NCBI GenBank assembly: GCA_944324945.1
Contig: CALUYE010000001.1
Location: 496,001 to 560,000, forward strand
Origin: Candidatus Gastranaerophilales bacterium
GTDB lineage: Bacteria; Cyanobacteriota; Vampirovibrionia; Gastranaerophilales; Gastranaerophilaceae
DNA: 64,000 nt
Direction: 5' to 3'
A program made the position numbers and the translations under genes. The notes under the pieces are model-generated. The model worked only from the letters and a program-made list of their open reading frames with translations, was not told the origin of the DNA and made no database searches. Of the stretch, positions 8,263 through 40,683 are shown piece after piece (position 1 is the stretch's first letter; each line of letters starts with the position of its first letter).

Positions 8263-8287
8263 TTTTGAAAAAATTTAAAAATATAAG

Positions 8288-8316
8288 CGCCGAAAACTAT
8301 TGTTTTTCGGCGTTTA
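8288..8316. terminator. Bidirectional terminator
   Basis: A 9-bp G/C-containing stem (8288-8296 with 8304-8312), a 7-nt loop and a T-rich 3' side. It sits between convergent ybaB and the small gene ending at 8314. Confidence 0.8.
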
Positions 8317-8517
8317 TTTAAAAGGATTTACTTCACTTTTCTTTACTTTATAAATTTGACCGCATTTAGAGCATGCTAAAATTTTGCCTGTTGAATCAAT
8401 CGGAACAAAAAGATGACTGCACTTTTCTTCTGTTTGTTCTTTAGGCTTTTTTGGTTTTTTAAATTTACCTTTTTTGATGTCGTCTTTAATTTTTAAAAAT
8501 AATTCTATAATATACAT
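8314..8517 (-). CDS. Small zinc-ribbon-like hypothetical protein
   Basis: 67 residues with no family I can name. An N-terminal hydrophobic helix (IIELFLKI) is followed by a very Lys-rich stretch. The second half contains CSH and CSKCG about 18 residues apart, a possible Cys/His zinc site. The basic middle and ribbon would suit nucleic-acid binding, but that is inference. It lies between a terminator and a divergent AT-rich promoter region. Confidence 0.55.
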   Translation of the reverse strand: MYIIELFLKIKDDIKKGKFKKPKKPKEQTEEKCSHLFVPIDSTGKILACSKCGQIYKVKKSEVNPFK

Positions 8518-8540
8518 TTTTATATATTTTAATTTTAAAC

Positions 8541-8552
8541 TATAATTTTATT
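8541..8552 (+). promoter_or_regulatory. -10 element, leaderless layout
   Basis: Perfect TATAAT at 8541-8546, 6 nt before the ATG at 8553. The intervening bases (tttatt) hold no ribosome site. Confidence 0.55.
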
Positions 8553-9362
8553 ATGGAAAAGAAGTTAAAAAAATTTATATCATCAACAGTCGCATTCCAT
8601 GATTTTCAAGAAGCCGTAAATATAGCAAATTCGCTTAATTGCGGAATTGAAATTTCAAGGTTCGGGAAACTGGCAAATATTGAAATTGATTATGAAAAAA
8701 ATAAAAAAGAATACAGTGCAATCTTAAAAGATTTTAATAATGAAATTACGCTTCATGGGTTTTTTTCAAATTTAAATATAGCTGCAAAAGACCCTGAAAT
8801 TTCAAGAATAAGCAAAAAAAGATACTATCAAAGCCTTGAGCTTGCCGAGCTTTTTGATGCAAGAACTGTTGTGTTTCATACTTGTTTTAATAATTTATTA
8901 AAACAGGCAAAGTATAGGGAAATGTTTTTTTTATCAAATATAGAATTTTACAGGGAATTTATTAAAGATTTTGAAAAGCTTGGAATAACTCTGACTATAG
9001 AAAATGTCCATGAAAGCGACTCAACTTTAATCAGAAATATAATAGCGGCAATTAATTCCCCTTATTTAGGCGCTACAATTGACATAGGTCATTGTAATCT
9101 TCACAGCGACATACCCGTAAGCGAATGGATAAAAGATTACGGGATTATGCTTAAACACATGCATTTTCACAACAATTTTAAAGATGAAGATGCGCACCAA
9201 AGCCTTCTTAAGGGTAATATAAATATTAAAGATATTTTAATTACCTTAAAAGAAATGCAGCTTTATCCTACAATCACATTTGAAATTTTTGATTATGATG
9301 AATTGGTTGAATCAATAGATTATTTTGATTCTTTGTGTGAAGAAATAGGACTTGAAACATAA
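8553..9362 (+). CDS. Sugar phosphate isomerase/epimerase family TIM-barrel protein
   Basis: 269 residues resembling the xylose-isomerase-like/AP-endonuclease-2 TIM barrel. Barrel-strand motifs with likely metal ligands are visible: ITLHGFF, RTVVFHTCF, LTIENVHES, GATIDIGHCN, MLKHMHFHNN and ITFEIFDYD. These match the Glu/His/Asp metal cluster of the superfamily. The exact reaction (sugar isomerisation, epimerisation or endonuclease IV-like) cannot be told. The N-terminal KKFISSTVAFHDF lacks a signal peptide, so it is cytoplasmic. The gene is monocistronic between a leaderless-type promoter and a strong terminator. Confidence 0.8.
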   Translation: MEKKLKKFISSTVAFHDFQEAVNIANSLNCGIEISRFGKLANIEIDYEKNKKEYSAILKDFNNEITLHGFFSNLNIAAKDPEISRISKKRYYQSLELAELFDARTVVFHTCFNNLLKQAKYREMFFLSNIEFYREFIKDFEKLGITLTIENVHESDSTLIRNIIAAINSPYLGATIDIGHCNLHSDIPVSEWIKDYGIMLKHMHFHNNFKDEDAHQSLLKGNINIKDILITLKEMQLYPTITFEIFDYDELVESIDYFDSLCEEIGLET

Positions 9363-9378
9363 ATTATGCAAGATAAAT

Positions 9379-9407
9379 AAAAAGAGGATGAATTTCATCC
9401 TCTTTTT
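9379..9407. terminator. Bidirectional terminator
   Basis: A perfect 13-bp inverted repeat (9379-9391 with 9395-9407) with A-rich and T-rich edges, between convergent genes. Confidence 0.85.
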
Positions 9408-9410
9408 AAG

Positions 9411-9695
9411 TTATTGTTGTGCTTCTTCTTGTTCTTTTCTTTTTTTGAAGCATTCTTTACATAAAATTTCTTTTCCTTCTATGGGTTTAAAAGGAACTTT
9501 TGTTTGTGCACCGCATTGAGAACAAACAGCATCATGCATTCTTCTTCTGGATCTTTGTCTTCTCGCTTTACGGCAATCAGGGCATCTTTTCGGTGTGTTT
9601 ACAAGTCCTTTTTGAGCATAGAACTCTTGTTCTCCTGCGCTGAAAACAAATTCCTGTCCGCAATCTTCACAGGTAAGCGTTTTGTCTTCGTACAT
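9411..9695 (-). CDS. Zinc-ribbon protein (zf-trcl-like)
   Basis: 94 residues with two Cys-pair zinc ribbons. The first is CEDCGQEF...CPDCRKARR, which matches the probable zinc-ribbon family zf-trcl. The second is CSQCG...CKECFKK. A basic RRQRSRRR segment joins them. The ATG at 9695 is chosen because aaggag lies 8 nt upstream (complement of 9704-9709) and the cysteines begin soon after. The longer ORF start at 9746 has no such support. The role is unknown; the basic linker and ribbons would suit RNA or DNA binding. Confidence 0.8.
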   Translation of the reverse strand: MYEDKTLTCEDCGQEFVFSAGEQEFYAQKGLVNTPKRCPDCRKARRQRSRRRMHDAVCSQCGAQTKVPFKPIEGKEILCKECFKKRKEQEEAQQ

Positions 9696-9846
9696 TTTTG
9701 GGTCTCCTTGTGTTAAATTTTGTGCTTTATCTGACCACTTGTGCAAAAAATTTTTTAAAAAATAAAGAATTCAGCGCACGAATAGTTGATTAAACTATAT
9801 TTTATAACTTTTTTTTGATTTATGCAATATTTTGCCGAATTATGTA

Positions 9847-27056: not shown

Positions 27057-28811
27057 CTAAGAATTATAACGATAATATTTGTTAAATGTTCTGACTATAT
27101 TTTTTTCTTTTTGATTGATGGCATTATCCTCATTATTAAGGATACCATATAATTGACTCAAATTAAACTCTTTTAATAAATTTTGGTCTTTTTCTTCGAT
27201 AATATCTTTATTATCTCCAAGTATTATATTTAAAATGTCATACATGGAAATATCCAAAAATGCATCTGTTATATTTTCGTCAAAGTGGCTGTTTTTCCCT
27301 TTAACCATTATTTGAAGAGCATCTTTTATTTCCATTTTATCGCGGTAGTGTCTTTTTGATGTAACGGCGTCAAACACGTCGCACACGGCAAGAATCCTTC
27401 CGCCCAGGGGAATTTCTTCTCCTTTTAAACCTTTGAAATATCCGCTTCCGTCATATCTTTCATGGTGGGATGATGCGATTGATGCTACTTCTTTAAAATT
27501 TTTTGAAATATAGACTTTACCTAAGATGTTATCGGTTAATTTTACATGTTCTTTTATGTGTTCGTATTCATCAGGGGTTAATTTTCCTTCTTTTTGAAGA
27601 ATGGAATCTTTGATTCCTATTTTACCTATATCGTGTAATAAGGCAGCGTTTTTTATAATTTCTTTTTCTTTTTTACTTAAAGCGCACTTATCACAAATTA
27701 AATCGGCATAAAGCATAACGCGCTTTGAGTGTCCCGATGTTATTTTATCTCTTGCATCAATTGAAGCTGAGAGTGCATTAATAAAGCTTGTGAATAAATT
27801 TCTCTGTTCTTCGATTAATTTTTTTTGTTTATCGAATAAATTTGCATTCTCAAGCGCAATCCCCGCGCTTGAACCTATTGCAAGAAGTAAATCTTCGTCT
27901 TTTTGCGTAAAATCGCCTTCAAATTTATTTAAAACCTGAAAAACGCCGACTATCTGATGGGACAGGTTTCTAATGGGCATACATAAGATGTTTCTTGTTT
28001 TATAGCCTGTTTTTATATCGATTTCTTTATTGAAATATTCATTTTCGTATGCATTTTTAATGTTTATGGTTTCTCCCGTTGTTGCAACATGTCCTGCAAG
28101 ACCTTTTGTCGCGCTGAATCTTATCTCTATGCTTTCAAGACCGGGAGCGACTTTGCTCCATAATTCATTATGTTCATCATCCAACAAAAAGACGGTGCAT
28201 CTATCCGCACAAAGCGCTTTTTCAATTTGCCGCGCTATTATTTCAAGAAGACTGTCGATATTTGTTTCAATTGCAATGCTTCTTCCGACCTGTAAAAGTG
28301 CTAAAAGTGCATTGTCTTTCATTTCGTTTGGAATGAAAGAAATTTTTTTGGAATTTAATGTCGGATTTTCTTTTTCCGTTTTTTCCTTGAAAGCTAAAAT
28401 TGCAGCGTTTAAATCCTTGTTTTCGTTTGTTTTTATTAATAAACTTCCTTTTATTAAATCAAGTGAAATTTCGATATTTTTCTCATGGTATTCTACAAGC
28501 CCCGCGCAAAAAAGATTAATTTTTTGTGCAAGAGCGCTTGATGATGAATTTGCAATATATTTTGCATCGTTTAAAAGATTTACGGTTTGATAATACCTTG
28601 CTCCCGTAAGATAGTTGTTGAGCGCAAGATAAGACATAACTATCGAAACAATATCAAAAAATTTATTTGCAATTGCGTTTTTATGCAAATAAATAAGTTC
28701 ATCATTCTTGAAGGGCAGATTTTTGCAAATACGGTTAAAAAAAGAGTCAATAAGATACTCTTTTATTTTTTGATAATTGCTTATATCTGTATTTTTTAAG
28801 GTTATAACCAT
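27057..28811 (-). CDS. GAF-HD-GYP cyclic-di-GMP phosphodiesterase-like protein
   Basis: 584 residues. An N-terminal helical region (1-165) of unknown type is followed by a GAF sensor domain (~175-325, with CTVFLLDDEHNELW and GVFQVLNKF) and an HD-GYP domain (~340-520). The HD motif HDIGKIG and HHERYDGSGYFKGLKG are present; the third residue of GYP is Phe here. HD-GYP enzymes hydrolyse cyclic-di-GMP and so control surface attachment or pili. No transmembrane segment is seen. First gene of the operon with the TPR protein and comM. Confidence 0.88.
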   Translation of the reverse strand: MVITLKNTDISNYQKIKEYLIDSFFNRICKNLPFKNDELIYLHKNAIANKFFDIVSIVMSYLALNNYLTGARYYQTVNLLNDAKYIANSSSSALAQKINLFCAGLVEYHEKNIEISLDLIKGSLLIKTNENKDLNAAILAFKEKTEKENPTLNSKKISFIPNEMKDNALLALLQVGRSIAIETNIDSLLEIIARQIEKALCADRCTVFLLDDEHNELWSKVAPGLESIEIRFSATKGLAGHVATTGETINIKNAYENEYFNKEIDIKTGYKTRNILCMPIRNLSHQIVGVFQVLNKFEGDFTQKDEDLLLAIGSSAGIALENANLFDKQKKLIEEQRNLFTSFINALSASIDARDKITSGHSKRVMLYADLICDKCALSKKEKEIIKNAALLHDIGKIGIKDSILQKEGKLTPDEYEHIKEHVKLTDNILGKVYISKNFKEVASIASSHHERYDGSGYFKGLKGEEIPLGGRILAVCDVFDAVTSKRHYRDKMEIKDALQIMVKGKNSHFDENITDAFLDISMYDILNIILGDNKDIIEEKDQNLLKEFNLSQLYGILNNEDNAINQKEKNIVRTFNKYYRYNS

Positions 28812-28990
28812 TAATCTATCCCATAATATTTTAAAATTATTATTAATTCATGTCAATTAAAGGAAAAATTTAATATATAAATATTTTTTATACTAATATT
28901 TGTAAATATATTTTAATAATGTATTGAATTATTTCTATATTTTAAATATTCTTAAAGTATAAGTTATTCAACGATACGGAAGGCAAAATT

Positions 28991-30010
28991 TTGAAAGTAA
29001 ATTTAATTTTAAACAACGGCTATCTTAAAAAAAATACTCTTCAATCAAAAAGTAATTACGCTAAAGCTCCTTTTAAAAATCTTCAAAATTCAAATATACC
29101 TTTTAAATCAAATCATGAAAACATTATCGATAAAGTCTCAAATTACGAACAAAACTCTGAAGTAAGCGCTTTTATTGATGATTTTAACAATTATCCGACA
29201 AGAGAAGTAAATGAAGGCATAACTAAGCTTTATGATAACAAGTATGCTTTTTTATATGATGAAATCCATGGCATGATAAGAAACGGCGAAGAAAGTAAAG
29301 CGCGCAGTATATTAAACAGGTTAAATCTTATAGGCCCTGTCGGAACTCATGCAAACACATATTACGGAAAATATATTCCTTTCTTTATCAAAAACGAAAA
29401 AAATGAAGATCCCGTAGAATATTTTAAACAACATGCTCAAAAATCATACACCGATATAAGTAAATTAAAAGCTCCCGAAATAGTTTTTGAAAGCGAAGAA
29501 AAAACAATAGAAAAAGTAAGACAAGTAAAAAATAAAGCGCAGGATTATCAAAAACAATTAAAACCTTTTGTTAAAAAATTCCGGGATTTAAATAACGGTA
29601 AAAATCCTGAATTTCCTGACTATATTATGTTCGTAACGGATGAAAAAGCGCCTGTTTATCTTGCTTTAGAACAACTTAAAAAAGAAATCCCCGAAGCCGA
29701 TTTTATATATGTTGCAGGAAGATATTTAAGAGCGGGGATATTGCAGGAAAGACTTGCGCAAACACTTGATAAAGCAGATGATAAATACTTGATGGAAGGA
29801 AAAAGAAGCATTATTTTTGTTCCCCATCTTGATGATTTAATGAACAGAAGAAAAAATATAAGAGAAAACATTGAACAAATAAGACGCTTTACCAGAAACG
29901 CAAGTGAAGGTTATCATGTAACTTTGGTTTTTTACACAGAACCCGATACAATCGAGCTGCTTGATAAAGAATCGCTTAAAGCAAATAACAAAGGTTTAGT
30001 AATAAAATAA
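28991..30010 (+). CDS. Unknown protein with degenerate AAA-like domain (copy A)
   Basis: 339 residues from a TTG start preceded by ggaagg; no ATG is available nearby. Family not recognised. The first ~40 residues are polar and end in NIPFKSN. The middle is helical (KVRQVKNKAQDYQKQLK). The C-terminal ~130 residues read like a nucleotide-binding alpha/beta fold without a P-loop: IMFVTDEKAPVYLALEQL occupies the Walker A strand position, SIIFVPHLDDLM resembles a Walker B strand, and VTLVFYTEPDT resembles sensor 1. It ends soon after, with no lid domain. The next gene is a paralogue. Assignment to AAA+ is inference by pattern, not by search. Confidence 0.6.
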   Translation: MKVNLILNNGYLKKNTLQSKSNYAKAPFKNLQNSNIPFKSNHENIIDKVSNYEQNSEVSAFIDDFNNYPTREVNEGITKLYDNKYAFLYDEIHGMIRNGEESKARSILNRLNLIGPVGTHANTYYGKYIPFFIKNEKNEDPVEYFKQHAQKSYTDISKLKAPEIVFESEEKTIEKVRQVKNKAQDYQKQLKPFVKKFRDLNNGKNPEFPDYIMFVTDEKAPVYLALEQLKKEIPEADFIYVAGRYLRAGILQERLAQTLDKADDKYLMEGKRSIIFVPHLDDLMNRRKNIRENIEQIRRFTRNASEGYHVTLVFYTEPDTIELLDKESLKANNKGLVIK

Positions 30011-30125
30011 AAAAGATTAAAATTCTTTAATTTTTTCCAATGGAATGATGCAAAAAAATGTAATTTATAATATAATGATAATAGACAATAGAAGCAAATT
30101 AACACAATAGGGAAATTGAAAAAAT

Positions 30126-31541
30126 ATGAAGATTGGTGTTGTTGGTACAGTTGGGTTAACTCCTGCAAAAAATTCGCAAAAGCTTAGAAGCAATTCAAAT
30201 TACAAAATTTCATTCGGCTCTGTAGAGCAAGATTGTTTCGTAAAAAGAGACAGGGCGCAAATTTTTGAAAATATGAAAAAAATATACGATGCCCATGATG
30301 AAATGTTTTATAAAATAAAACCCGAAGTTGATGAATTAAGAAGCAATATATCTGATTTAACAAACAAAGCTTCACAGGTTCAATCGATAAAATACGTATC
30401 TGATGATGACAAATCACCTTTAGCGCAATTTATAAGATCAATGAAAAAAGATGAGATGAAACCCGTAAATGAGCTTTATGATATACTTGAAGAAAGTATT
30501 GCGGGTCGTTTAAATTATGGTGCTGAAGAAAGCGTTAAACAACAAAGCTCTGCAGGATGTATATTATTTAAAAGCCGCGACAGGCAGCTTGCAAAAGATA
30601 TGACTTCACTGTATCCTTTTTACGGTTTATTTAGAAAAGATAAACAAGAAACCGCTTCAGGCGTGTTTGAGCTTCTTGATATGTATAATAATAAAAATTA
30701 TCTTTTTGAAACCGAAATATTAGATTCAAGCAATAAACAAACAAGTGATTATTTTAATCAAATAATGCAAAAATTAACGGATTCAACATCCTCAAAAAGA
30801 ACAGGCTATTTTATAATTGATGATTTAGAAAGTCTTATGGATGAAAACAAAAATTCAAAAGAAAATGTTGAAACCATGAAAGATGTCCTGGAAAATTCTT
30901 TTGATAAATTTAAAAGCATTATTATTGCAAGTGCCCAAGAAGCGCCTGAAAACGCGCAGGACGGATTTATAAGGGAAATTGATCTTGATAATCTCGGAAT
31001 AACAAAAGACCACGTTGAAGCTATTAAAGGAGCAAAAAGAGAAATCGGCGCGCAAGTTGAAGAGTTTGCTTCTTTGTATGGGAAAGTTCCAAGTCAAGAA
31101 CTTGAAAGAATGGAAAAATTAAAACCCATGTTTGCCGATTTAACAAGAATAGATAAAGAACTTGAAAACTTTATTTTCACTCAAAAAAGAAGCGAATTAT
31201 GCATAGGTGTTACTGATGATGAATTTTATAAATTAAGTCATCTTCAAGATGTTGGACCTTATACAAAAACAAAAGCCAGCCTTCTTGCTAAACTTTTGGA
31301 AGAAAAAATAGCCCAGGGCGGTGCGGAGGAAATAATTGAAACAAGTGTGCCTCAAATTAATGAAAAACCGATTCAACAGGCAGCTAAAAAAACTTTCAAA
31401 GATAATATTGATGAAATAATAAATAAAATAAAAAACATGCCCCCGAATAAAACTTTTAAATATGCGGCAATTGGGCTTGCTATAGTTACGGGTATTACTT
31501 ATATTGCAAAAAGAATAAAAACTTCAAAACAACTAAAATAA
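30126..31541 (+). CDS. Unknown protein with degenerate AAA-like domain and C-terminal membrane anchor (copy B)
   Basis: 471 residues, paralogous to the upstream gene. The polar N-terminus ends NYKISFGS. A helical region (60-140) follows, then CILFKSRDRQLAKDM where an AAA+ Walker A would be, GYFIIDDLESLM as a Walker B-like strand, SIIIASAQEAP as sensor 1 and FIREIDLDNL as the usual strand after it. A region resembling a helical lid (SHLQDVGPYTKTKASLLAKLL) follows. Near the C-terminus is one hydrophobic span (FKYAAIGLAIVTGITYIA) with a basic tail, suggesting membrane anchoring with the body in the cytoplasm. It lacks GxxGxGK, so ATP hydrolysis is unlikely. Confidence 0.6.
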   Translation: MKIGVVGTVGLTPAKNSQKLRSNSNYKISFGSVEQDCFVKRDRAQIFENMKKIYDAHDEMFYKIKPEVDELRSNISDLTNKASQVQSIKYVSDDDKSPLAQFIRSMKKDEMKPVNELYDILEESIAGRLNYGAEESVKQQSSAGCILFKSRDRQLAKDMTSLYPFYGLFRKDKQETASGVFELLDMYNNKNYLFETEILDSSNKQTSDYFNQIMQKLTDSTSSKRTGYFIIDDLESLMDENKNSKENVETMKDVLENSFDKFKSIIIASAQEAPENAQDGFIREIDLDNLGITKDHVEAIKGAKREIGAQVEEFASLYGKVPSQELERMEKLKPMFADLTRIDKELENFIFTQKRSELCIGVTDDEFYKLSHLQDVGPYTKTKASLLAKLLEEKIAQGGAEEIIETSVPQINEKPIQQAAKKTFKDNIDEIINKIKNMPPNKTFKYAAIGLAIVTGITYIAKRIKTSKQLK

Positions 31542-31639
31542 ATTTTTAAGTTTTAAAGTTAAAAGTTTTATTATATAATTTTATACTCTTAAAGATTATA
31601 TTATCTAATTATTTTATATGTAGAAAACAAAAATACTTT

Positions 31640-31648: not shown

Positions 31649-31674
31649 ATAATTTGTATAAAAAGGAAAGACTT

Positions 31675-32943
31675 ATGACTTTAAAACAAATGCTTAAAAG
31701 ATTTTCAATATTTATTGCAATATTTATTTTATTCTGTACAACAAATATCCAAAACCCTGCAATGGCAATTACTCCTCAAGGATTATACGACAGGGCCTGG
31801 AGGTTAATAAGCGCTAAATATGTTGATGATACTCAAAATCAACAAAACTGGCAAAGATGGCGCCATAAATACGATAGCGTAATTAAAGACGAAGAAGATG
31901 CTTATATTGCAATAGGTACCATGGTAGATTCTTTAGGCGATGTGTATACTAAATTTTTAACTCCTAAGGAATATAAGGAAGAAACAGAAAGTATTAAAGG
32001 TTCTCTAAACGGTATTGGTGTACAAATCGGAGTTAGAGACGGTAAATTATTAATTATTGCTCCGCTCGAGGATACCCCGGGGGAGCGTGCGGGTTTAAAA
32101 AGCGAGGATGAAATCCTTGAAATTGACGGAAAGTCTACAAAAGGAATTAAAGTTGAAGCCGCAGCCGATCAAATAAGAGGCCCTGAAGGAACCGAAGTTA
32201 AACTTTTAATTAAAAGAAAAGGCGAAGAAAATAAATACTACACAGTTCCAAGAGCCAAAATCGAGCTTAAGTCGGTTTCAACAAAACCTCCTAAAATCGG
32301 CAAAGTTGACGATAATTTAGGATATATAAGACTAAGTTCATTTATTTCAAGAAACGCAGCAGGCGAATTTCAAAAAGCGCTTAACGAGCTTAAAGATAAA
32401 GACGGTCTTATAATCGATTTAAGGTCAAACCCCGGCGGTCTTTTGGATAACGCTATTTATATTGCCGATATGTTATTAAGCTCAAAAGTCATAGTCTCAA
32501 CGGTTGATAGAGACGGATATAAAGAAACACAACATTCTCTATCTCAGGTTGCAACAAATCAACCGATAGTCGTATTAATAGACGGCGGCTCGGCATCCGC
32601 TTCGGAAATCCTGTCAGGCGCCTTAAAAGATAACGACAGAGCTGTAATTGTGGGTAAAAATTCTTTCGGAAAAGGCCTTGTTCAAGAAATAAACAACCTT
32701 CCTGACGGATCTGCACTTCATATTACAATACAAAAATATTTAACTCCAAATGGAACAGATATCCACAAAAAAGGTATCTCGCCCGATTATGTCGTTGATT
32801 TTACGCAGGAAGACGCCAAGAAAAACATAGATCCCCAGCTTGCAAAAGCTTGTGAGATTTTACAAAAAGCGGTCGGCAAATACACCCCTGCTCAAAATCA
32901 AGAACAAAAGAAAGAAGAAAATAAACAAGCCTTAAATAAATAA
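31675..32943 (+). CDS. ctpA: C-terminal processing peptidase (S41A)
   Basis: 422 residues from the ATG at 31675, which follows aaaggaaag; the upstream start at 31654 would add MYKKERL and lies before the ribosome site. A signal sequence (FSIFIAIFILFC) directs it to the periplasm. PDZ domain at ~95-175 (GIGVQIGV ... GLKSEDEILEIDG). The catalytic Ser is in GGSASASEIL and the Lys in GKNSFGKGLVQ. Such proteases trim C-termini; in cyanobacteria CtpA processes D1, and in other bacteria they control cell-wall hydrolases. The tail is Gln/Lys-rich. Confidence 0.94.
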   Translation: MTLKQMLKRFSIFIAIFILFCTTNIQNPAMAITPQGLYDRAWRLISAKYVDDTQNQQNWQRWRHKYDSVIKDEEDAYIAIGTMVDSLGDVYTKFLTPKEYKEETESIKGSLNGIGVQIGVRDGKLLIIAPLEDTPGERAGLKSEDEILEIDGKSTKGIKVEAAADQIRGPEGTEVKLLIKRKGEENKYYTVPRAKIELKSVSTKPPKIGKVDDNLGYIRLSSFISRNAAGEFQKALNELKDKDGLIIDLRSNPGGLLDNAIYIADMLLSSKVIVSTVDRDGYKETQHSLSQVATNQPIVVLIDGGSASASEILSGALKDNDRAVIVGKNSFGKGLVQEINNLPDGSALHITIQKYLTPNGTDIHKKGISPDYVVDFTQEDAKKNIDPQLAKACEILQKAVGKYTPAQNQEQKKEENKQALNK

Positions 32944-38341: not shown

Positions 38342-38704
38342 TTATACTTCCGCTTCACTTTCTATTGTCGCTGAGGTTCTGATTGATTCTACGCCGCCTT
38401 TGGATTTTGACAGTCCTTTTTCTTTGAATTTTTTTACCTGACGGTCTAATTTGTCGCAGACAAGGTCAATTGAAGCGTACATGTTTTCCGCATGTTCTTC
38501 TACTCTGATTGTATCGCCGCCTATTTTACACAACACTTCCGCAATGTGCGAATCACTAACGGAGGGATTTTTGATAACAGATAAAACAACATCAATAGCG
38601 TCAATCTGTTCGTAGTGTGCTGCTACTTTTCCTGCTTTCTCTTTGACGTAAGCTTTGATGGCATCGGTAATTTCGATGTTACGTCCGTTAACGTGGATAT
38701 GCAT
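38342..38704 (-). CDS. hpf: Ribosome hibernation-promoting factor, short form
   Basis: 120 residues of the HPF/RaiA family, which binds the 30S decoding region in non-growing cells. The N-terminal MHIHVNGRNIEITDAIKAYV and the repeat-like AEVLCKIGGDTIRVEEHAENMYASIDLV define the fold. The long form found in cyanobacteria (~190-200 residues) has an extra dimerisation domain. Here the protein stops after a short basic tail, so it is the short type or has lost that domain. Ribosome site cggag. Confidence 0.92.
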   Translation of the reverse strand: MHIHVNGRNIEITDAIKAYVKEKAGKVAAHYEQIDAIDVVLSVIKNPSVSDSHIAEVLCKIGGDTIRVEEHAENMYASIDLVCDKLDRQVKKFKEKGLSKSKGGVESIRTSATIESEAEV

Positions 38705-39435: not shown

Positions 39436-40683
39436 ATGATTAGCGAAGATTTATTTAACAACCAGATTAAAAATATGTCAAATTATATTATGTTCAGGAT
39501 TAAGGCGCGTCAAATTGAGTTGACTCCTGAATTAAAAGCTAAAAACAGGGCCCCTATAGCGCTTTCGATGGGCGCTCCGGTTGAAGCCGTTCCTAAATTT
39601 GTAATTGATAAAACAAAAGAATATTTAGACATTGATTCGCTTCATACTTATTCAACCCCAAAGGGAGAAAAGAAATTTTTAGAAGCAGTTAAATCAAGAA
39701 TGAAAAAAAGATTCGGAGTTGATTTAAATGCGGAAAATGAAATTTTTTCTTTAATAGGTTCAAAAGAAGGTATAGCAAATTTAATCAGAGCTTTAGTTAA
39801 TTATAAAGATATTGAGGAAGAAAAAGATGTTATTTTAATTCCTTCTCCAAGCTACGCTTCATATACTCAAATGATTAAAGCATCGGGCGCAAGGGCTTAT
39901 GCGGTCGATTTAAACGAAGAAAATAATTTTATGCCTGATTTAAATGAAGTTTATGAAAAATATTTAAAAGAAGGCAATGACCCCAAAAAAATTAAAGCGC
40001 TGATTGTAAATTATCCTAACAACCCGCTTGGGTGCACTTGTGATTTTGAATATTTACAAAAGTGCGTTGATTTTTGCAATAAGCACGGCATTGTTTTAAT
40101 ATCCGATGTTGCATATTGCGAGATGTATTTTGATGAAAGCTATAAACCCCACAGCATGCTTGAATGCAAAGGGGCAATGGAGTGCTGTATTGAAATGCAC
40201 AGTTTTTCAAAAACTTATGCAATGACAGGCTGGCGTTTAGGCTGGGCTTGCGGTAATTCGACCATAATTAAAATGTTATCAAGAATGAAATCAACTGTTG
40301 ATACGGGTATATTTAAAGTTCTTCAATATGCCGCTGCTGACTTATTGGTAGGCGAAGAAGGGGATAAGTATATTGAAGAGCAAAATATTAAATTTAAAAA
40401 TAAAATTCAAACTTTTGTTGACGGACTGAATTCCCTGGGTTATGAAGTTAAAATGCCTAAAGCCGCGTTTTATTTGTGGTTGAAAATTCCCGAAAGATTT
40501 AAAGATTGCGAAGAATTTGCAACGCAGATGCTTGAAAAATCAGGCATTGTAATAGTCCCGGGTACAGGCTTTGACGAAAATTCAAAAAGACATGTAAGGG
40601 TATCTGTTGTGGCGTCTGATGATGATTTAAAAGAAGTCATAAGACGTATGAAAGAAGACGGATTTCAATACAGCGAAAAATAA
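39436..40683 (+). CDS. Class I/II aminotransferase, LL-diaminopimelate aminotransferase-like
   Basis: 415 residues, PLP-dependent fold type I. The PLP lysine is in SFSKTYAMTGWRLGW. NYPNNPLGC and VLISDVAYCEMYF supply the Asn and Asp/Tyr that hold the cofactor, and the C-terminal Arg is in SKRHVRVSVV. The segment LIGSKEGIANL matches DapL-type LL-diaminopimelate aminotransferases, the route to meso-DAP and lysine used by cyanobacteria. Other aminotransferases share the fold, so the substrate is probable, not certain. The gene has its own promoter (TTGACT-17-TAAAAT). Confidence 0.85.
   Translation: MISEDLFNNQIKNMSNYIMFRIKARQIELTPELKAKNRAPIALSMGAPVEAVPKFVIDKTKEYLDIDSLHTYSTPKGEKKFLEAVKSRMKKRFGVDLNAENEIFSLIGSKEGIANLIRALVNYKDIEEEKDVILIPSPSYASYTQMIKASGARAYAVDLNEENNFMPDLNEVYEKYLKEGNDPKKIKALIVNYPNNPLGCTCDFEYLQKCVDFCNKHGIVLISDVAYCEMYFDESYKPHSMLECKGAMECCIEMHSFSKTYAMTGWRLGWACGNSTIIKMLSRMKSTVDTGIFKVLQYAAADLLVGEEGDKYIEEQNIKFKNKIQTFVDGLNSLGYEVKMPKAAFYLWLKIPERFKDCEEFATQMLEKSGIVIVPGTGFDENSKRHVRVSVVASDDDLKEVIRRMKEDGFQYSEK

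Follow-up and report, generated by a model that had tools for sequence, protein, structure and literature searches.

The two adjacent genes that we call A and B probably encode the P-loop-less outer subunits of a cassette in which a P-loop ATPase gene stands between an A-type and a B-type gene; the ATPase gene is missing here, and the complete cassettes are read as encoding a split-site heteromer. The genes lie in a window (the whole stretch of DNA that was analysed, 64,000 nucleotides) from a Candidatus Gastranaerophilales bacterium. A preliminary description, made from the letters alone, had taken them for tandem paralogues resembling AAA+ domains without a P-loop, one of them membrane-anchored, and possibly for a regulatory or scaffold derivative of a AAA+ ATPase that belongs to no known family. 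The genes and the gap between them are the following.

28978-28983, forward strand: GGAAGG, probable ribosome-binding site of gene A, 7 nt 5' of its TTG start codon
28991-30010, forward strand: gene A, P-loop-less AAA-derived protein of 339 aa (ORF list, profile matches and tree)
30011-30125, forward strand: gap between A and B, the place of the P-loop ATPase gene in relatives
30126-31541, forward strand: gene B, P-loop-less AAA-derived protein of 471 aa with a C-terminal membrane span (ORF list, full-length B-like profile and tree)

Both frames are intact and run in the same direction. In an i.i.d. sequence of matched base composition, the chance of such a stop-free run is 9e-14 for A and 7e-19 for B. 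On one side the pair is flanked by a gene on the opposite strand (27057-28811), which we take from its translation to be of the GAF/HD type, and on the other side by a gene (31654-32943) that presumably encodes a ctpA-like protease, the name being likewise read off the translation.

Searches with the single sequences were of little help. Protein A was matched to the Pfam AAA model (PF00004) at 19.4 bits (E 0.0015), below the curated cut-off of 21.2, and B had no match to this model, to which 3 of 19 P-loop-less domains were matched at E <= 0.01. The searches of NCBIfam, PHROGs and PADLOC with A and B returned only weak matches to unrelated models; for the PADLOC anti-phage profiles there was none for A, and the best for B was PDC-S05 (E 5.2e-4 over 71 residues). 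The single-sequence PDB search matched A to nothing and B to nothing noteworthy, a related-locus search with A alone found nothing, and the direct BLASTP match between A and B was weak (E 0.006). AlphaFold, run on the single sequences with no alignment, gave pLDDT values of 34 and 38 for the two proteins, too low for a confident model of the fold. As judged from sequence, no family described in Pfam, NCBIfam, PHROGs or PADLOC covers the A/B pair, as had been proposed.

The relationship was much clearer with profiles. Profile A1 was made from 19 P-loop-less domains (A and B included) and A2 from 13 P-loop domains, whereas the B-type profile A3 was built without A, and the cassette-ATPase profile A4 without A or B. 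In an alignment of 32 domains, the P-loop and P-loop-less classes lined up over the whole core with the same strands, and A1 was aligned to A2 by hhalign with a probability of 99.7 and an E value of 4.6e-26 over 157 columns. Vps4/CdvC (E 1.5e-4) and a VCP-like ATPase (E 0.0042) were among the top five PDB matches of A1, and the three others were AAA chains too; A2 and A4 likewise matched a VCP-like ATPase, at 1e-33 and 7e-18. The phr column of A1 was aligned with the R of the VCP pGRFd segment, which we take, as established AAA knowledge, to be the known arginine finger. Moreover, window A was found by A3 at 1.8e-10 and by A4 at 1.4e-6. Since A is found by profiles made without A or without both window proteins, common ancestry with AAA is well supported, and it is likewise well supported that A and B are AAA-derived domains that lost the P-loop, which is what the first reading had proposed. 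A set of 80 loci matching A2 came from widely scattered taxa; these look like generic AAA proteins and were set aside.

The motif positions of the two proteins, placed by MAFFT alignment except for the finger regions and the span, are listed below.

29630-29668, forward strand: degenerate Walker A position of A, FVTDEKAPVYLAL, aa 214-226
29804-29839, forward strand: Walker B-like strand of A, RSIIFVPHLDDL, with PH in place of DE
29912-29944, forward strand: sensor-1-like strand of A, YHVTLVFYTE
29978-30007, forward strand: SRH/arginine-finger position of A, Arg replaced by Asn (aa 333), at the C-terminal end of the protein
30564-30602, forward strand: degenerate Walker A position of B, LFKSRDRQLAKDM, aa 147-159
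30804-30836, forward strand: Walker B-like strand of B, GYFIIDDLESL, with DD in place of DE
30909-30941, forward strand: sensor-1-like strand of B, FKSIIIASAQ
30960-31007, forward strand: finger loop of B, about 7 residues shorter, without the PHR motif, a single Arg (aa 283) kept
31455-31511, forward strand: C-terminal hydrophobic span of B, aa 444-462

The Walker A-, Walker B- and sensor-1-like segments named in the preliminary description fell on the right columns when aligned with P-loop relatives. The segments FVTDEKAPVYLAL and LFKSRDRQLAKDM stand at the GPxGxGKT column of these relatives, and in place of GxxxxGK[ST] this column reads TDEKAPVY in A and SRDRQLAK in B; the acid pair of the Walker B strand is intact in neither protein. 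That A and B only resemble AAA proteins by chance, within generic alpha/beta proteins, is very improbable. The unconvincing single-sequence Pfam and PDB searches would agree with it, but the results with A1, A3 and A4 and the column-by-column agreement with P-loop relatives of the same cassettes do not. By hydropathy, the span of B is weak (17-residue mean of 1.5); four B relatives have spans at the same place, with means of 1.55-2.33 over 19 residues, and B is probably membrane-anchored as suggested earlier.

The relatives of A and B were searched for in other genomes. At least 66 of 145 genomes of the order had an A1 match at E <= 0.001, some of these matches being P-loop members, and of 194 genomes drawn from the phylum, 31 were matched at 1e-10, every one of them in the window's own family. 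The cassette family is large and patchy within the bacterial order. Among 58 genomes, our own included, the strongest matches to A and B were on one contig of a species of the same genus (G012:C58), where adjacent genes encode a 753-aa A-like protein, a 397-aa AAA protein with the P-loop GPNRNGKT, and a 537-aa B-like protein. This is the full order of the cassette: a P-loop-less A, a P-loop ATPase and a P-loop-less B with a C-terminal membrane span. In the complete cassette of G121 (L192), the three proteins have lengths of 394 aa (A), 442 aa (ATPase) and 493 aa (B). The cassette ATPase was matched to PF00004 at 39.4 bits, above the cut-off.

With E < 1e-70 and most of the 470 profile positions covered, matches to A3 were found at 10 places in 9 of the 383 genomes searched, and in two further genomes (G138 and G244) the B gene is cut by the contig end. 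Of the 11 genomes that hold B, 9 have the A-ATPase-B order, 7 of them complete (G012, G121, G189, G178, G256, G148 and G376) and the 2 others contig-cut. G149 has B alone, and G267 has A and the ATPase with no B adjoining. The window has the A-type and B-type order, the C-terminal span of B and the N-terminal SF motif of the cassettes, and no gene for a P-loop ATPase stands in the gap of only 115 bp from A to B. The earlier wording of tandem paralogues was right as to paralogy, which is given by the A3 and A4 matches; the tandem pair, however, corresponds to two parts of a three-gene layout.

The regions fetched were 20 around the first matches and then 40 from among the profile matches listed. 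In these 60 regions and the window, which exclude L228-L233 and were chosen by hits rather than at random, a P-loop gene lay within 4 kb of 47 of the 57 P-loop-less genes. Hydrophobic spans outside the domain were present in 22 of 57 P-loop-less proteins compared with 7 of 73 P-loop proteins. Furthermore, the dN/dS ratios in three related cassette pairs were 0.14-0.29 for the P-loop-less genes and 0.12-0.24 for the ATPases; the P-loop-less genes in these pairs are under purifying selection.

Some features vary among the cassettes. The A-type proteins range from 388 to 781 aa owing to long N-terminal regions, some of which contain repeated helical-looking units, and a Pfam search with the two longest (L232:1269-3611 and L058:6989-9247) found nothing. 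In G148 there are two tandem B genes (L195:6815-8254 and 8270-9709) that look identical in the alignment; either the gene was duplicated recently or the contig end was misassembled.

A tree was made from 117 non-redundant domains, left from 143 matches after those under 60 bits were dropped (130 remaining), without L228-L233. The cassette ATPases formed one clade (support 99/97), and so did the B-types including window B (100/98). Window A was grouped with the A of G121 at 100/66, which is moderate support only. Four P-loop-less proteins match the P-loop regular expression; their aligned column is degenerate (e.g. GKTDIAIQ, GKSKEERE) and their class was kept, and 4 of the 73 proteins of the P-loop class do not match the expression. 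Since 2-3 class changes are needed by the tree, P-loop loss may have occurred more than once. The small P-loop-less clade L076/L216/L217 is nested next to the ATPases from the same cassettes and may reflect a separate, second loss of the P-loop within a cassette.

We then considered the missing ATPase. By profile search, no family ATPase was found elsewhere in the window, and none of the cassette subclass elsewhere in the genome, which is 99.85% complete in 15 contigs with gaps that could hide one. The best in-genome match to A4 was 161 bits, compared with 425-648 bits in four cassette genomes, where 425 bits is the score of G376, the sole cassette ATPase tested outside the A4 training set. 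P-loop relatives in the same genome, for which a profile search had been proposed, do exist: the searches found four other P-loop family ATPases, at C1:597k, C1:600k, C2:46k and C7:78k. P-loop-less partners adjoin those on C1 and C2, 3 of the 4. These make up two cassettes of ATPase and P-loop-less partner, at G000:C1:597-602k (L067) and G000:C2:46-49k (L196), and the ATPase at G000:C7:78k (L068) had no partner within its 10.4-kb region.

With these four ATPases encoded elsewhere, the window pair could still be functional and take one of them, from another cassette, as a partner in trans. Solitary P-loop-less genes in other genomes (L203, L204 and L071) would be in line with such an arrangement. 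Nevertheless, we consider it unlikely: the four candidates are placed on branches of the tree other than the cassette ATPase clade, most of them have P-loop-less partners of their own nearby, and window A is missing the finger Arg.

The arginine finger distinguishes the subunits of the complete cassettes. The segment that follows sensor 1 has the ending [IV]FP[IV]xMSI in the 10 cassette ATPases; in the profile alignment of A4 with VCP, an Ile of these proteins stands at the VCP finger Arg, and none of the 10 carries a finger Arg. The finger motif [APS][HG]R was present in 10 of 10 A-types (window A not counted), and the finger Arg in 8 of 8 B-types (7 from cassettes and the solitary B of G149; window B not counted). 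Across the 117 domains of the MAFFT alignment, in which window B was mis-registered and scored as H before its finger row was re-read by hand, Arg occupied the finger column in 45 of 50 P-loop-less domains and 23 of 67 P-loop domains. Among the P-loop proteins, the finger-column Arg was found in 11 of 41 near a P-loop-less gene and in 12 of 26 of the rest; none of these finger counts is phylogenetically independent. The counts indicate that complementarity is strong in the A-ATPase-B cassettes, weaker across the family and not universal. Together with the dN/dS ratios and the hydrophobic spans, the finger pattern suggests that the P-loop-less subunits anchor a machine and lend it the finger, and that the cassette encodes a split-site heteromer with fingers given in trans.

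The three proteins of a complete cassette would most likely assemble into a mixed ring or stack of AAA domains. The ATPase between A and B, with its Walker motifs kept and its finger absent, is predicted to bind ATP; A and B would not bind ATP in the usual way and would supply the finger in trans, while B may tether the assembly to the membrane. As the ATP site and the finger would be on different proteins, we propose that hydrolysis occurs only at heteromeric interfaces.

The cassette proteins can be compared with known AAA systems. The core strand order and the motif spacing are common to them and to classical AAA proteins of PF00004 (Vps4/CdvC, VCP/Cdc48). However, A and B have neither the Walker A motif nor the Walker B acid pair, and the cassette ATPase is without the arginine finger, which classical proteins carry themselves. 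The clamp loader belongs to a different AAA+ clade; its delta-prime subunit is itself no ATPase, and we know of no membrane span or cassette layout in that system. According to PMC11044049, Arg158 of delta-prime (HolB) is a trans-acting finger, and the gamma subunit has its own finger, Arg169. The lending of a finger to a neighbour, which for the cassette A and B is proposed from the sequence, is thus a likeness to delta-prime, whereas the cassette ATPases differ from gamma in having no finger of their own. The delta-prime-like pattern, an Arg finger with no ATP site, was found by sequence in the relatives of A and B and not in window A.

Magnesium chelatase is of another AAA+ clade. According to PMC3789969, ChlI is the active and ChlD the inactive AAA+ protein of one machine, ChlD keeping a Walker A lysine (K49) that is needed for activity and acting as an allosteric nucleotide-binding site. 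In contrast, a P-loop lysine is missing from both A and B. In the Pex1/Pex6 double ring, as described in PMC9265785, D1 is inactive yet keeps the Walker A lysine, and the inactive domains are joined to active ones in one protein; A and B differ in both respects. To our knowledge, no precedent combines P-loop-less partners with a finger-less ATPase class in a mobile-looking cassette.

The window pair departs from the complete cassettes. With an Asn at the finger of A, a cut loop in B and no matching ATPase, it is expected neither to hydrolyse ATP nor to activate a partner, and it may either serve as a membrane scaffold without catalysis or be a remnant in decay. That it is a functionless remnant after loss of the ATPase gene, whose frames persist since the loss is recent, appears somewhat unlikely. 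Such decay would account for the missing ATPase gene, for the finger gone in A and the loop shortened in B, and for the terminal branches, 1.96 for A and 2.22 for B, which are among the longest of the tree (median 0.52). However, both frames (339 and 471 aa) are intact, which would be very improbable had selection not acted until recent times, and the ribosome-binding site and the hydrophobic core strands have been retained; the many changes with no frame break speak for selection that was relaxed or changed, not for a long neutral period. The intact frames argue for a useful role of the window pair, and the long branches and lost residues argue against one.

The site of the pair was compared among related genomes. 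The GAF/HD gene was present in all 27 genomes of the genus searched, at 28 loci. In G026 and G015, whose GAF/HD genes score second and third behind that of the window, this gene directly adjoins ctpA without A or B, and at 25 other GAF/HD loci neither ctpA nor A/B was seen in the fetched flanks. The A/B pair is therefore absent from the corresponding site in two sister species, and the extent of the insert, as placed by aligning the empty sites, is as follows.

about 28900-31595, no strand: insert relative to the empty site of two sister species, between the GAF/HD gene and ctpA; the left edge is uncertain by tens of bases

By eye, neither flanking repeats nor an integrase were recognised at the insert. 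The cassette of G012 sits elsewhere, between the counterparts of window genes 38345-38704 and 39436-40680, between which the window has nothing but one small frame.

The patchiness of the cassettes and their differing insertion sites would also suit a decoy or inhibitor, in which A and B would enter and poison the ATPase rings of a competitor or of related cassettes that look mobile; a dominant-negative subunit would have to lose the ATP site and the finger alike. We give this only a slim chance, because no defence or mobile link was found (PADLOC gave nothing of note and no integrase was recognised beside the pair) and the idea is purely conjectural. The reading as outer subunits of a cassette that lacks its ATPase here is preferred.

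On a wider scale, we offer only tentatively the possibility that the order harbours a large family of fast-evolving split AAA machines, in which the mixed, membrane-tethered assembly alone fires, and that the window pair would be one step further on, a purely structural or inhibitory module at the membrane with neither ATP site nor finger. If the complementary loss is real, the ATP site and the arginine finger would stand on separate chains in many cassettes of one order; such natural pairs would allow tests of what the finger does in assembly and in hydrolysis, and would give a first mechanism for a whole protein class without a family name. A narrow literature check of titles and abstract openings found no description of A-ATPase-B cassettes, and a search for pseudo-ATPase heteromers found nothing.

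A short motif near the N-terminus is shared by A and B.

29096-29110, forward strand: N-terminal motif of A, IPFKS, a variant of the SF[KGC][GASCN] type
30207-30221, forward strand: N-terminal motif of B, ISFGS

The motif SF[KGC][GASCN] occurred within the first 75 residues of 50 of 144 family proteins, compared with 24 of 424 other ORFs, and its frequency in internal windows was about 1%. Further examples are L076:290-1186, L216:12006-12890, L217:729-1613 and L209:763-1587. Unrelated proteins carry the motif at their head too, so that in this lineage it may serve as an N-terminal signal for sorting or docking.
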